Source of the DNA: Armatimonadota bacterium
GTDB lineage: Bacteria; Armatimonadota; Fimbriimonadia; Fimbriimonadales; ATM1
Length of the DNA stretch: 33,245 nucleotides
Assembly: GCA_021324165.1 (NCBI GenBank)
Contig: JAJPJR010000005.1
Coordinates: 1-33,245, forward strand
Reading direction: 5' to 3'
The notes beneath the pieces were generated by a model, which was not told the DNA's origin, did no database searches, and saw only the letters and a program-made list of their open reading frames with translations. Shown here piece by piece: positions 6,594 to 12,051 of the stretch (position 1 is its first letter; each line of letters opens with the position of its first letter). Both the position numbers and the translations under genes were made by a program.

Positions 6594-7760
6594 ATGAAGC
6601 GGCTTTTTGCGGGCTTCGGCGGCGTCGCGGCGGCTTGTCTCATCAGCTGCACGGCAGGGCGTACGGGCATTCGAACCAACACCGCTCGCGCTCCGATCAG
6701 CGATCATCCTGTCCAGCGCTCGAGTTCAGAAAGTTATCGCGTGGAAACCGTTGCTGCCGGGCTCACCGTTCCGTGGGCCATCGCGTTTCTTCCTGATGGC
6801 CGGGTGCTGATTACCGAACGCCCTGGCCGAATTAGGGTGATGAAAAACGGCGTGCTCGATCCCAAGCCGATGCTTGCGCTTGAACAGGTGATCAACGCAG
6901 GCGAAGGCGGCCTGATGGATATCTCCATCCATCCGAAGTTTTCACAAAACGGGTTTGTTTATGTTTCTTATGTTGCCAACACTCAGCCGCCGACGGTGCG
7001 CGTAGTTCGGTATGTGGAACAGAACGGACTGCTGCAAAACCCGCGCATCATTGTCGGCGGAATTTCGGCATCAATGCTCCATTGCGGATGCAGAGCGCGC
7101 ATCGGCCCCGATGGCAAACTTTACATCACCACCGGCGAAAAGTTCGAACGCAACCGCGCGCAAGATCTGAACGATCTTTGCGGAAAAACGCTCCGCGTGA
7201 ACGACGACGGAACCATCCCCAACGACAATCCGTTCGTAGGCAATCCGAACGCGCGTCCTGAAATCTGGTCTTACGGGCACCGAAACTCGCAAGGCATCGC
7301 TTGGCAGCCAGGCACAGGAACGATGTTTCAAAGCGAGCACGGCCCCAGCCAGTCCGACGCACCAGGCGGCGGCGATGAAATCAACGTGGTGCAAAAAGGC
7401 AAGAACTACGGATGGCCGGTGATTCACCATCGCCAAACGCACGAAGGCATGGAATCCCCTATCGCCGAATACACTCCGGCGATCGCTCCCGCCAGTGCGG
7501 CTTTTTGTTCAGGAAAAATGTTTCCCGAATGGAAGGGCGATCTTTTTGTCGGATGCCTGAAAGGCGAACGGCTGCTGCGATTGCAACTTCAAGGCACAAA
7601 AGTCATCGGCCAAGAATTCATGTTTCAAAACCGGTTCGGGCGCATCCGCGAAGTAGAGGAAGCCCCCGACGGTTCGATCTGGTTCACCACATCGAACCAA
7701 GACGGCCGCGGCTCGCCGCGCGAAGGCGACGACAAGGTTTTCAGAATCGTTCGCAATTAG
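6594..7760 (+). CDS. PQQ-dependent sugar (glucose/sorbosone) dehydrogenase family lipoprotein
   Basis: This 388-residue protein belongs to the GSDH beta-propeller family, which oxidises sugars with PQQ in the periplasm. Family blocks seen are VPWAIAFLPDGRVLITERPGR, EGGLMDISIHPKF, ARIGPDGKLYITTGE, WSYGHRNSQGIAW, EHGP followed by GGGDEINVV, and the terminal EEAPDGSIWFTTSNQDGRG. The N-terminus is a signal peptide with a lipobox-like LISC near residue 20, suggesting an anchored protein. I chose ATG 6594 over 6579 because it starts directly with MKRLF and gives a standard signal peptide. In the H-x-G-x-R block two positions are Cys (HCGCR) where Gly or Asn is common. The true substrate is unknown. 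Confidence 0.88.
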   Translation: MKRLFAGFGGVAAACLISCTAGRTGIRTNTARAPISDHPVQRSSSESYRVETVAAGLTVPWAIAFLPDGRVLITERPGRIRVMKNGVLDPKPMLALEQVINAGEGGLMDISIHPKFSQNGFVYVSYVANTQPPTVRVVRYVEQNGLLQNPRIIVGGISASMLHCGCRARIGPDGKLYITTGEKFERNRAQDLNDLCGKTLRVNDDGTIPNDNPFVGNPNARPEIWSYGHRNSQGIAWQPGTGTMFQSEHGPSQSDAPGGGDEINVVQKGKNYGWPVIHHRQTHEGMESPIAEYTPAIAPASAAFCSGKMFPEWKGDLFVGCLKGERLLRLQLQGTKVIGQEFMFQNRFGRIREVEEAPDGSIWFTTSNQDGRGSPREGDDKVFRIVRN

Positions 7761-8878
7761 GTTTTAAAAAACCGCGGCATGCGCTCGCTCGCCGATGGCA
7801 GTTGAGGAAACCTCGCGTGCGGTTCGGTTTGATACCAATAAGCAACCGAACTGTAATCGTTCTGCTGCAGATTGGCGTGCCCGTGCTCGATCGAAAACCG
7901 GATGCTTTTTCGAAACAAAACCGGATCGTGAATGTGCAGCCGATAACTGGTCAGCGCCCGGCGGTCTTTGTGCTTTGCATCATGTTCGTGAATGCTGGTT
8001 CCGGCGAAAAGATAGGTTCGGTTGTGCATGCCCCACGCTTGGGTCAGATAGTCTTCGCTGCCCGTTCCGTGCAAGTTGGGCGGCCATTCCTGCCCATCCA
8101 AAAAGAACATGTCGTCGCCTTCGCCCCACCACGTAAGTTCGGGCACTTTGTATTCAAATTCGCCGAATTTCCTTGTCCAGGGTGTGGGGTCAATGTTTTC
8201 TACGCTCAAGTTGCAGCCCACATAATGGCCTCTGCCCTCGGCATGCAGAATCAGATAGTTCTCTTTGTCGCTTAAGTTGGGATCGGACATATGATTCCAA
8301 TAATGTTCGCCCCGCGATGCAAGCGGCCCGCCCTGAACCAATGTGGGATACTCCTGGCGGTATTGTGCATGGAAGCGCAAGGTGTCCTCTTCCAAACTAT
8401 CGAGCTCGTCATAATCAACGTAATAGTAAAAACTGTCGCAAAGCAGTTCGCTTTGGTTTTCCACCGATATTTTCATTCCGCGTTTGAACGGCATCGCAAA
8501 ATAGCAGTTTAGGGCGATGCCTCCGCCGACTTCTCCTTCGTTGTCATCGTGCGTAACGGTGTTGAACGCGGCGTTTTCAAAACTCCGTGCAATTCCATGT
8601 CCCAAGCAGAAAAAATCGCCCATCGGCACTTCGATGCTGGGGTGCTCCTCGCCATCCCACCATGCGCGAAGCACCATATTACGCAGATACATCCGGTCGC
8701 GATGATTGATCGTGAACCACAGATGACGAATCACTCCTGCTCCGCCGACTTCGGCCAAGGTCTTGGTTTCGCCTGGCTCGAAACTGATCCAATCTTTGTT
8801 TCCGCCCGTAACATCCCAGCTCGATGCGCGCATCGAACGTCCCGAGCGCGGATACATCAAGTTTTCCAAGTCTGCCAT
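7757..8878 (-). CDS. DUF2961 / GH172-like glycosidase, cytosolic form
   Basis: This 373-residue DUF2961 protein has no signal peptide. DUF2961 includes glycoside hydrolase family 172 (alpha-D-fructofuranosidase and D-arabinofuranosidase activities), beta-jelly-roll enzymes that assemble as oligomers. The hallmark WWGEGD gives Glu253 and GTGSEDY gives Glu275, the two glutamates expected to be catalytic in the family; their 22-residue spacing is one more than in the paralogue at 10012. Other blocks are GAGVIRHLWFTI and PMGDFFCLGHG. I chose ATG 8878; an in-frame extension upstream is a shadow of the neighbouring gene. It begins 10 bases after a frameshifted DUF1579-like gene and is probably cotranscribed with it. 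Substrate is not predictable. Confidence 0.88.
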   Translation of the reverse strand: MADLENLMYPRSGRSMRASSWDVTGGNKDWISFEPGETKTLAEVGGAGVIRHLWFTINHRDRMYLRNMVLRAWWDGEEHPSIEVPMGDFFCLGHGIARSFENAAFNTVTHDDNEGEVGGGIALNCYFAMPFKRGMKISVENQSELLCDSFYYYVDYDELDSLEEDTLRFHAQYRQEYPTLVQGGPLASRGEHYWNHMSDPNLSDKENYLILHAEGRGHYVGCNLSVENIDPTPWTRKFGEFEYKVPELTWWGEGDDMFFLDGQEWPPNLHGTGSEDYLTQAWGMHNRTYLFAGTSIHEHDAKHKDRRALTSYRLHIHDPVLFRKSIRFSIEHGHANLQQNDYSSVAYWYQTEPHARFPQLPSASERMPRFFKT

Positions 8879-8888
8879 GTGCCAGAAG

Positions 8889-9331
8889 TTACCGCTTTTT
8901 GTAAACGTCCGCGCAAAACGTGTGCCACTGATCTTCCAACGGCCCCCGCTGTTCGATAACCGAACTCCATTCTCCACCGGCCTCATCGAAACTAAACCGG
9001 TTGCGCAGCACTGCTTCCTTGCTTGCGAAAATAAACTCAATGGAGTTTTCATCACGCGTACCCACGCCGATCGTTTCGCTGAACTGTCCGCCGAACACAT
9101 CCAGCCAATGGCAGACGTATTTTTTCTTTTCGTGATTGAATCCGATGTAAACATGCGCTTCATATTTCGGCGGAGATTCTATATCCACCATCGTGATCCG
9201 AACGAACTGATGATTCAGCACCCACTCAACCCTGGCGTCGTTATAAACGGTTCGGCTCACAAACTGCGTTCGATGCGCCATTCTCCGATCAATTTGTCGA
9301 GCAATGCGTCGTTAAACGATTCTTGATTCAT
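8889..9331 (-). pseudogene. DUF1579-like protein broken by a one-base frameshift
   Basis: Reading from ATG 9331, the first frame gives MNQESFNDALLDKLIGEWRI then ERSL and a TGA ending at 9257. The continuing frame gives SRTVYNDARVEWVLNHQFVR and runs on to 8889 as a convincing lipocalin-like protein. Adding one base beside the T-run at 9261-9263 joins them into a single protein of about 147 residues with an uninterrupted GEWRIERS-F-VSRTVY segment. The fold resembles the DUF1579 family, beta-barrel proteins of unknown role. It precedes the GH172 gene by 10 bases. The break may be a genuine mutation or a sequencing or assembly error. An intact downstream start at 9281 would produce only the C-terminal 130 residues, with the first eight in the wrong context. 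Confidence 0.75.
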
Positions 9332-9356: not shown

Positions 9357-9401
9357 CAAATAAAGTCATCGAGGCCGGTGCGGCGTCGCATCGGCCCCGA
9401 C
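9357..9401 (-). terminator. Strong hairpin terminator downstream of the 102-residue gene
   Basis: Read on the minus strand, a 13-pair GC-rich stem (9387-9399 with 9370-9382; one G-T pair and one A-C mismatch) closes a four-base loop, and T-A and G-T pairs extend it. It is followed a few bases later by CTTTATTT. It lies 27 bases after the stop codon at 9428, so the riboswitch-controlled unit probably ends here. Confidence 0.65.
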
Positions 9402-9427
9402 GTTTGCGTTGATCAAACGGCGCGAGG

Positions 9428-9736
9428 CTAACTGGGGGTGCGCGTTTGATCTCCGTTTTTGTTGCGCTCGGCTTTTTTGTGCCGAGCGAGCACGCGGCGT
9501 GCAAGGTCCAAGACCTCACTGTTGAGGCGAGCCAACCGCAGCACTCTCCTTTCCATGCGATCAGCTTCGTCATCTAACGTATCGCGGCTCAGCATTTTCG
9601 CGCCCATGCCCATTTGGTCGGCATGTCGGCGAATGTCACGCGATACCTGGATGAGTCTGCGCGCTTTGCGAATCGGGTGCCAATCAGAACGAGCGATTTC
9701 GGAAACCTCGTTCCGGACTTCGAACACAGTCAGCAT
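9428..9736 (-). CDS. Orphan 102-residue helical protein under a c-di-AMP riboswitch
   Basis: I do not recognise this protein. It is basic, almost entirely predicted alpha-helix, with no signal peptide and no membrane segment. A heptad-like stretch (about residues 55-85, with ADRMERRVLRLARLNSEVLD) suggests a coiled coil, and the last 15 residues are polar and disordered. ATG 9736 is preferred over ATG 9760 because GGAGG at 9742-9746 sits five bases upstream. The leader carries a ydaO/yuaA-class riboswitch at 9810-9910 and the gene is followed by a terminator, so it is a single-gene unit. Known genes of this regulon are mostly wall hydrolases and potassium or osmolyte transporters, so a soluble helical protein would be unusual. 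Confidence 0.75.
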   Translation of the reverse strand: MLTVFEVRNEVSEIARSDWHPIRKARRLIQVSRDIRRHADQMGMGAKMLSRDTLDDEADRMERRVLRLARLNSEVLDLARRVLARHKKAERNKNGDQTRTPS

Positions 9737-9741
9737 TGCAA

Positions 9742-9764
9742 CCTCCACGATAGTCGTCATGGAG
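9742..9764 (-). promoter_or_regulatory. Hairpin that can mask the ribosome binding site
   Basis: On the minus strand CTCCA at 9764-9760 can pair with TGGAG at 9747-9743, and an inner CGA/TCG can pair within the loop. The 3' arm overlaps the GGAGG ribosome binding site at 9742-9746 of the downstream gene. It could therefore be the expression platform of the riboswitch, acting on translation. This is inference from sequence. Confidence 0.45.
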
Positions 9765-9809
9765 CCTTATCGAATGCACCTCGTTGTGCTCCCGATATGC
9801 TCTCGATCT

Positions 9810-9910
9810 GCCTGCGGGGTTAGCTGACGGGTTAGGGCCAAGAGATACCCCTCCTCGCACGGGCCGAAGGATGCACCCCATAAACTTGGGTCCCCCGCTC
9901 CAAACAAGCG
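9810..9910 (-). promoter_or_regulatory. c-di-AMP riboswitch (ydaO/yuaA class)
   Basis: Read on the minus strand the conserved blocks occur in order: GCGGGGGACCCA, then TGGGGTGCATCC, a variable hairpin, GGGGTATCTCTTGGCCC, and CCCGTCAGCTAACCCCGCAG. The P1-type pairing GCGGGG with CCCCGC closes the aptamer, with weaker outer pairing GCTT/AGGC. This matches the ydaO/yuaA consensus, known to bind cyclic di-AMP and usually to switch genes off when it is abundant. A TATTAT -10-like box lies just upstream at 9938-9933, with no good -35. The downstream gene is at 9736-9428. A c-di-AMP cyclase is not in the window. Confidence 0.93.
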
Positions 9911-10011
9911 TTTGGATTCGGCGTCTAATCTAATAATACCCCCATGCCGCCCGAAAAGTGTCGCCGAATCGGTCTAAAATGACTGTTCATCTTGGGAGGT
10001 TTCTTGCGCAA

Positions 10012-12051
10012 ATGAACTCGGGCTGCAGGTATTTCGCGTTGCCGCTGGTTGTCCTTACGTCTGCCGCCTCGGCTGCGTCCGAGGTTTCCATCCGCTCGCT
10101 TCTTTTGGAGATGCCCGACTTGGAGCGCCTTGCTCACGTTTCAAAGCCCGCTTACACCATGGCGCAGGCAAGCAGTTATGACCGCGCGGCCAAATCCCCA
10201 ACGGAAAACTGGTTCGCCAACGCCGATTGGGGGCAGTTTTTGCGCGTCGAAAGAAGACAAGGGCACAACGAATACGTCATGGCCGATTTGAAAGGCCCCG
10301 GAGCGGTGATGCGCATCTGGTCGGCAAACCCTGCAGGCACGCTTCGAATCTACGTTGACGGTCAAGAACTTCCAGAACTGATCATTCCGTTTTCCGATCT
10401 GTTGGGTTCCAAAAACCCCGACTTCCCGCCGCCCTTCACAGGTGTGCACGGCCAAGGATGGAACTGTTACTATCCGATTCCATATCAAAACAGTTTGAAA
10501 ATCACGCTGGACGATGTGGGAGGCGATCCACGCAGAGTTTATTATCACGTCGGCTATCGAACGTATGAGCCGGGTGTGGTTGTTCGCAGTTTTTCGTTGG
10601 CCGCCGTCAAAGATGCATCCAAAGTCGCAGAAAAAGCCGCAGCAAAACTGCTCGATCCGAAGCCTGTTTCGAGCATCAAACAACAAGTCACCAACGAAGA
10701 GCAGACATTGCAGCCGGGCGGCATCGTTTCGGTGCGCACTCCCGAGGGTGCCGGTTTCATCAGCCAACTTTTGGTGCGCGCCAACGCAGAGGATGTGAGC
10801 GAACAGCCAGAAGATCTGCTGCGAACCATACAGTTCGAAGCCGATTTCGACGACGAACATTGCATTGACGCGCCGCTCGGAGATTTTTTTGGGTTCGCTC
10901 CGGGGTTCCGGGCCAGTGCATCGCTTCCGATGAGTTCGTTTGCGGAAACCGGTTTTCTGGAATCGCGATGGGTAATGCCGCAATCCGAAACAGGAAGGAT
11001 GTTTTTCATCAATCGCGGCACGCATCCGGTGCAGTTGAACCTTCAAATCACCTGGATTCCAAGGGCGTGGACGCCCGATACGATGCACTTCAAAGCCAAA
11101 TGGCGCCGCGAAACTTTGAAAACCAGACCGTTTCGCGATTGGACACTTCTCGATGCGGCAGGAACCGGACGCTATGTCGGCACCACGTTGTGCGTTGCAA
11201 ACCCGGTGAGCGCATGGTGGGGCGAAGGTGACGAAAAGGTGTACGTGAATGGCGAAACGTTTCCTTCGACCTTCGGCACAGGCAGCGAAGATTATTTCGG
11301 TTACGCGTGGTCGTCCAGCCAGCTTTTTCAACAGCCATATCACAATCAACTTAGGTGCGATGGCCCCGGCAATCGCGGATACACGTGCGTAAGCCGATAC
11401 CAAATCAGCGACGATATTCCGTTCACCACCTCGCTTCGCTTCGATCTTGAAATCTGGCATTGGGCCGATGTACTCGCCGATTTTGCGGATGTCGCATTCT
11501 GGTATCAACTCCCTGGCGGAAGCGATACGTTTCAAGCGCCGAATGCCGCATCGTTTGCGATCTTCCCGCTGCCCGAAATTCCGCACATCAAAGGCGCAAT
11601 CGAGGGCGAATCGCTCAAACTGATCAGCAGCACAGGCGGCCAAATCGAAAATCAAACTCTGGATGAAAGGTGGTCGGGAGCAGCCCAAGTGTGGTGGCAC
11701 GATCCTTCGCCGGGAGATAAAGCGATTTGGGAAATCCCAAGCGCAAAACTTGGCGCCATGCGGCTCAAGGGACAGTTTTGTATTGCAAGAGATTATGGAA
11801 TCGTGCAGCTGTATTGGAACGGTCAAAAACTCGGCTCGCCCGTGGACTTTTATAGCGACTCTTTGTCCGTGCGTTTGATTGACTTCGGCGAGGTTGAAGT
11901 TCGAGAACGGAACGAACTTCAGGCCGAAATTGTTGGTTCCAACAACTCCGCTATCAAAAAGCACATGTTCGCAATTGATTATCTGCTGTTGGGGGAAGGC
12001 GGCTCTCGAATGCCGCAAGCCGCACTCGGCCGTCTTATGCAAAGGAGATAA
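10012..12051 (+). CDS. Secreted DUF2961 / GH172-like glycosidase with extra C-terminal domain
   Basis: This 679-residue protein has a signal peptide (hydrophobic residues about 7-22, ending TSAASAA). The DUF2961 region spans roughly residues 50-510, with GPGAVMRIWSANP, APLGDFFGFAPG, WWGEGD (Glu405) and GTGSEDY (Glu426). The 21-residue spacing of the two glutamates equals that of the characterised GH172 catalytic pair as I recall it. Residues about 540-670 form an additional beta-rich domain, possibly carbohydrate-binding. I chose ATG 10012 because GGGAGG precedes it at 9994-9999; an upstream GTG would add 18 polar residues ahead of the signal peptide. The RidA-like gene starts three bases after its stop codon. 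Substrate unknown; fructan or arabinan sugars are possible. Confidence 0.87.
   Translation: MNSGCRYFALPLVVLTSAASAASEVSIRSLLLEMPDLERLAHVSKPAYTMAQASSYDRAAKSPTENWFANADWGQFLRVERRQGHNEYVMADLKGPGAVMRIWSANPAGTLRIYVDGQELPELIIPFSDLLGSKNPDFPPPFTGVHGQGWNCYYPIPYQNSLKITLDDVGGDPRRVYYHVGYRTYEPGVVVRSFSLAAVKDASKVAEKAAAKLLDPKPVSSIKQQVTNEEQTLQPGGIVSVRTPEGAGFISQLLVRANAEDVSEQPEDLLRTIQFEADFDDEHCIDAPLGDFFGFAPGFRASASLPMSSFAETGFLESRWVMPQSETGRMFFINRGTHPVQLNLQITWIPRAWTPDTMHFKAKWRRETLKTRPFRDWTLLDAAGTGRYVGTTLCVANPVSAWWGEGDEKVYVNGETFPSTFGTGSEDYFGYAWSSSQLFQQPYHNQLRCDGPGNRGYTCVSRYQISDDIPFTTSLRFDLEIWHWADVLADFADVAFWYQLPGGSDTFQAPNAASFAIFPLPEIPHIKGAIEGESLKLISSTGGQIENQTLDERWSGAAQVWWHDPSPGDKAIWEIPSAKLGAMRLKGQFCIARDYGIVQLYWNGQKLGSPVDFYSDSLSVRLIDFGEVEVRERNELQAEIVGSNNSAIKKHMFAIDYLLLGEGGSRMPQAALGRLMQRR

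Follow-up and report, generated by a model that had tools for sequence, protein, structure and literature searches.

A c-di-AMP riboswitch is paired with a family of small helical proteins in a class of Armatimonadota

The role of a signal has often become clear from the genes under its riboswitch. For c-di-AMP, published work names K+ and amino-acid transporters and genes for wall remodelling and the osmotic response as targets (PMC7266159), and the ydaO riboswitch of B. subtilis is an OFF switch that acts by transcription termination (PMC5575661). Here we analysed a 33,245-nt stretch of DNA from an Armatimonadota bacterium (the window), in which a preliminary description had placed a ydaO/yuaA riboswitch in the minus-strand leader of a gene for a 102-residue protein. 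The element shares with the RF00379 (ydaO/yuaA) class a full-length aptamer, the conserved core, a predicted loop:tail pseudoknot and its position before a start codon. It differs from the published examples in its target, a small helical protein instead of a transporter or a wall or osmotic gene, and from the B. subtilis ydaO copy in its leader, the platform of which looks translational rather than built for transcription termination.

An Rfam covariance search matched RF00379 at 9795-9933 on the minus strand (88.5 bits, E 1.2e-19, against a gathering cut-off of 38 bits; model positions 1-134 of 134), and the three conserved ydaO/yuaA blocks that had been picked out earlier were all found, aligned to the conserved core of the model. 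RF00379 is the sole Rfam family to reach its cut-off in the whole window. At the level of sequence this confirms a genuine full-length c-di-AMP riboswitch, and its aptamer would be expected to bind c-di-AMP. The genome encodes a diadenylate cyclase (DAC; PF02457, E 7e-35), as do 108 of the 113 genomes of the class. On another contig, the 2.33 Mb assembly carries a second RF00379 copy (L049; G000:C56:24529-24663, minus strand), behind which no clear target was found; the SurA-like gene that stands behind similar copies in relatives was not detected there. The features of the locus are collected in Table 1.

Table 1. Features of the riboswitch locus, in window coordinates.
Feature	Position	Strand	Basis or remark
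c-di-AMP riboswitch aptamer RF00379, complete	9795..9933	-	Rfam covariance search
Pseudoknot 5' half (predicted), loop CTCTTGG	9838..9844	-	7 pairs with 9800-9806
Pseudoknot 3' half (predicted), aptamer 3' tail TCGAGAG	9800..9806	-	pairs with loop 9838-9844
Anti-Shine-Dalgarno CTCCATGA	9757..9764	-	pairs with 9750-9743
Shine-Dalgarno arm TCGTGGAGG, SD GGAGG 9742-9746	9742..9750	-	hairpin with anti-SD
Gene for 102-residue basic helical-hairpin protein, stop included	9428..9736	-	homologues, selection, structure model
Possible terminator: GC-rich hairpin, moderate U tract	9361..9402	-	z -2.39

The gene starts 58 nt behind the aptamer on the same strand, a placement that is kept in homologues. 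Its start, ATG 9736, has a GGAGG Shine-Dalgarno (SD) at 9746-9742 and matches the starts of homologues (MLTVFEVR or MLTVFDVR); a 110-residue reading from ATG 9760 was favoured neither by the SD nor by the homologue alignment. Of the "strong terminator" described earlier on the far side of the gene, the strong GC hairpin (9402-9361) stands, but its U tract is only moderate and a consensus terminator scan gave no hit here, leaving a terminator that is plausible. DUF2961 genes lie on both sides of the locus, one downstream (7757-9163, minus strand) and one divergent (9958-12051, plus strand). Because a start at the first GTG of the divergent ORF would leave only 25 nt to the riboswitch, translation of this ORF probably begins at an internal site near 10012.

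As a lone query, the window protein found matches in 10 of 61 relatives in its order, its own genome counted, and the nine non-self matches are 31-52% identical to it. A 12-row profile extended this to 34 matches in 31 of the 113 genomes of the class and gave none outside the class in the remaining phylum genomes searched (291 in all), so that the helical-hairpin family appears confined to one class of Armatimonadota. Members share the consensus MLTEFEVRR...P.RKAR.LL.LAR..., with K24 invariant, and 26 of 27 are strongly basic (pI 10.3-11.9). The encoded protein is conserved and under purifying selection, with dN/dS of 0.11-0.18 in four close pairs; by these comparisons of sequence it is a real gene. 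It had been called an orphan, which it is not, having a homologue family spread through its class. The statement that it belongs to no recognised family was borne out: sequence searches of Pfam, NCBIfam, PHROG, PADLOC and PDB returned no family relative at a meaningful score, and a single-protein scan of genome contigs for distant relatives found nothing. Nor does the protein, soluble by sequence, fall in the known ydaO target classes (wall hydrolase, or K+, osmolyte or amino-acid transporter). The proposal of a new kind of c-di-AMP effector therefore stands in the sense of a new kind of riboswitch target, a protein without a recognised family. At three loci the gene is duplicated in tandem downstream of a single riboswitch: L159 (G099:C2:119712-120365, minus strand), L014 (G033:C26) and L177 (G070:C63).

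Is the riboswitch a regular companion of this family? Nine of the ten matches from the single-sequence search (window protein counted) lie 21-110 nt behind RF00379 on the same strand, and of the 34 profile matches 29 are likewise found behind it, one tandem second copy included; profile A2 took in rows picked for following a riboswitch, a bias from which the single-sequence search is free. The chance expectation for such a placement is about 5e-5 per gene. Of the 84 genomes with the riboswitch, 31 have the family, against 0 of the 29 without it (Fisher p 2e-5). Five homologues lack RF00379, and a search at these for a sub-threshold copy found none. Further downstream, the genes differ by genus (DUF2961, GroES-like, TrpG-like, MFS, Tad1-like or none obvious; some of these identities were read by eye). 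Since the neighbours vary between genera, the link between riboswitch and family is more than a retained gene block, and the pairing persists amid a changing neighbourhood. Taken over the sequences compared, the conservation of this pairing across many related Armatimonadota is real.

To place the family among other targets, we turn to similarity clustering of the genes behind all 137 RF00379 copies in the 113 genomes. The helical-hairpin family is the commonest assignable first gene (28/137), ahead of hisB (23/137, one checked as IGPD); 16 Tad1-like proteins lie within about 1.3 kb downstream of a riboswitch, and the other recurrent targets are a second small family (10), an MFS transporter (9), a third small family (8) and SurA-like proteins (4). 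These counts are lower bounds, because 24 riboswitch copies fall in no recurrent cluster. The gene hisB, for imidazoleglycerol-phosphate dehydratase, stands behind the riboswitch in 23 genomes with a leader of roughly 220-380 nt (e.g. L013, L020, L021, L048, L050), an arrangement that would, unexpectedly, connect histidine synthesis with c-di-AMP. In 9 genomes the gene behind the riboswitch encodes the MFS transporter (L066, L022, L062, L119 and others), and the order riboswitch, helical-hairpin gene, MFS-like gene is apparent in two (L145 in G068, L131 in G094).

The second small family, of about 120-140 aa, has no detectable relation to the helical-hairpin family and bears a conserved PFMEFSS-like C-terminal motif in most members, e.g. 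L067 (G021:C1:165698, minus strand), L068 (G050:C1:2523209, plus), L047 (G015:C1:57540, minus) and L171 (G066:C6:943701, minus). The third consists of B-type helical ORFs of about 90 aa (MSFVSQIMRKASIVERS...), which in one genus lie between the riboswitch and a Tad1-like gene (L053, L072, L037, L025, L073, L074, L056, L166). These match the window family weakly but in register (residues 6-52, E 0.00056, probability 30%) and are possibly its distant relatives; no homology was found between the family and C-type small ORFs or Tad1-like proteins. In one genome, G004, small ORFs stand behind three of the four riboswitches.

How might the riboswitch act on the gene? A hairpin able to cover the GGAGG site had been proposed as a sign of translational control, and the window leader does hold one (9764-9757 with 9750-9743, 8 pairs). 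Among the 13 leaders long enough for such tests (36-108 nt), pairing of a C/U-rich segment with the SD averaged -10.8 kcal/mol against -7.5 in shuffled sequences, pairing of the aptamer tail with the leader averaged -14.6 against -10.6 (0 of 500 shuffles as good in either case), and a leader paired better with its own tail than with others' tails (p 0.0008), p values that are optimistic because the shuffles preserved base composition rather than dinucleotide frequencies and because the sequences are not independent but related. Over 134 riboswitch copies, the predicted pseudoknot pairing of loop and tail was better for cognate than for swapped partners, and compensatory changes are seen (GCUCUUG:CAAGAGC, UGGUUCUUG:CAAGAACCG, CCUUGGU:AUCAAGG). 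In eleven cases the leader measures only 21-30 nt, which leaves no room for a separate terminator and makes translational control likely; these short leaders carry a variable yet conserved hairpin directly before the SD, a second platform unlike that of the long leaders. The conserved pseudoknot tail, the anti-SD pairing and the short leaders together support translational control, and since the tail bases can enter either the pseudoknot or the pairing with the leader, but not both, repression by the ligand is predicted. In line with this, 15 of the 25 leaders modelled showed reduced SD accessibility once the pseudoknot formed, in a calculation without tertiary energy and with modest controls. 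These models suggest that the family leaders most likely act by translational control, OFF at high c-di-AMP. In the case of the window copy, the family-wide pairings favour translational control, and modelled accessibility, the same with and without the pseudoknot (0.18 vs 0.19), favours neither direction.

The opposite arrangement, an ON-type switch in which binding of c-di-AMP frees the ribosome site and turns on synthesis of the protein, is unlikely, though several observations would fit it. Modelled accessibility rose upon pseudoknot formation in 4 of the 25 leaders; the SD-proximal hairpin of the short leaders shares a CC with the pseudoknot tail and could be opened by the ligand; and induction would suit a sponge or sink. 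Against it are the larger number of leaders with lowered accessibility, the long-leader tail:leader pairing that competes with the pseudoknot, and the OFF behaviour of B. subtilis ydaO (PMC5575661). In one version, the conserved aptamer motif AACCUC would pair with the SD; its variants, judged by eye, seem not to covary.

A sponge role brings in two phage cyclic-nucleotide sponges, the anti-CBASS protein Acb2 and Tad1 (Thoeris anti-defence 1). The AlphaFold model of the window protein (mean pLDDT 93) has helices at 4-16, 21-51 and 55-98, which is the order of the Acb2 protomer, with one short and two long antiparallel helices (PMC12043709), and the two proteins are similar in size. Tad1 homologues (PDB 8kbb, E 6e-8) are chromosomal in 67 of the 113 genomes, though none was matched in the window's own, and in related genomes they share the riboswitch regulon with the helical-hairpin family. 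Two of the 16 Tad1-like genes near a riboswitch are directly behind it and most are behind a small ORF; examples are G059:C8:182719-183021 (minus strand; L046), G048:C1:203267-203569 (plus; L071) and G051:C2:498348-498653 (minus; L074). A Tad1-like protein was also modelled, but poorly (pLDDT 57), and the model was left out of the analysis.

These likenesses could mean that the helical-hairpin protein is itself a cyclic-dinucleotide receptor or sponge like Acb2, which we consider improbable. The window protein is chromosomal and has no sequence relation to Acb2 that we found: no Acb2 chain was matched when profile A2 was compared with PDB, although small helical families diverge fast. Fold searches of PDB and viral models gave generic helical bundles (UvsY, Z 10.6; best Foldseek E 0.82 and 0.34), all in a range common for such bundles and with Acb2 absent among the matches listed; as they gave nothing else, we claim no fold relative. 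Neither sequence nor fold evidence favours membership of the Acb2 family. Helical hairpins are a common fold, the family has no profile similarity to Tad1-like proteins, and an OFF-type switch would produce a sponge just when c-di-AMP is low, which makes little sense. Equally doubtful is the wider proposal of a Fimbriimonadales circuit in which the riboswitches would control their own c-di-AMP-binding proteins (helical-hairpin and Tad1 homologues), derived from or ancestral to sponges, that buffer or relay the messenger.

Least probable of all is a role for the 102-residue frame as a regulatory upstream ORF or leader peptide of the next gene (DUF1579-like/DUF2961), which would then be the real target: a DUF2961 gene is next in the window, a similar protein is next in G005, and a few genomes have a family gene before other riboswitch targets such as MFS or Tad1-like genes, but about 85-100 conserved residues under purifying selection, a confident predicted fold, downstream genes that change between genera and a GC hairpin ahead of the next gene all speak against it.

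We therefore favour a single-gene, OFF-type translational c-di-AMP switch that makes a soluble, basic adaptor or regulator, with a probability of roughly 60%. The aptamer, the gene, their conserved link and the anti-SD and pseudoknot pairings of the family are its observed parts, from which we infer ligand binding, the direction of the switch and the function of the protein. At high c-di-AMP, the aptamer would close and lock its 3' tail in the pseudoknot, the anti-SD would pair with the SD, and the small protein would not be made. At low c-di-AMP, the free tail would instead pair with the segment around the anti-SD, exposing the ribosome site. In other bacteria, low c-di-AMP goes with K+ or osmotic and envelope stress. 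The product, a predicted soluble, basic three-helix hairpin protein, is probably an adaptor or regulator made at low c-di-AMP, most likely binding protein or nucleic acid, and may serve adaptation to that state. This reading rests on its being small, basic, not membrane-bound by sequence and usually without a conserved neighbour, and on the multiplication of small ORFs of this kind together with the riboswitch in G004; with no conserved partner gene to go by, the proposed function is conjecture.

While the riboswitch class is already known, the target family, the class-wide association and the translational platforms appear new in the open-access literature, in which we found no paper that joins Armatimonadota and c-di-AMP riboswitches and no studies of the c-di-AMP biology of the class. 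A known second-messenger riboswitch thus marks an undescribed family as its commonest assignable target in an entire class. The pairing suggests that the c-di-AMP signalling network has a branch not described before, and the helical-hairpin family, the Tad1-like proteins, hisB and the MFS transporter make up a list of candidates for new c-di-AMP-dependent functions.
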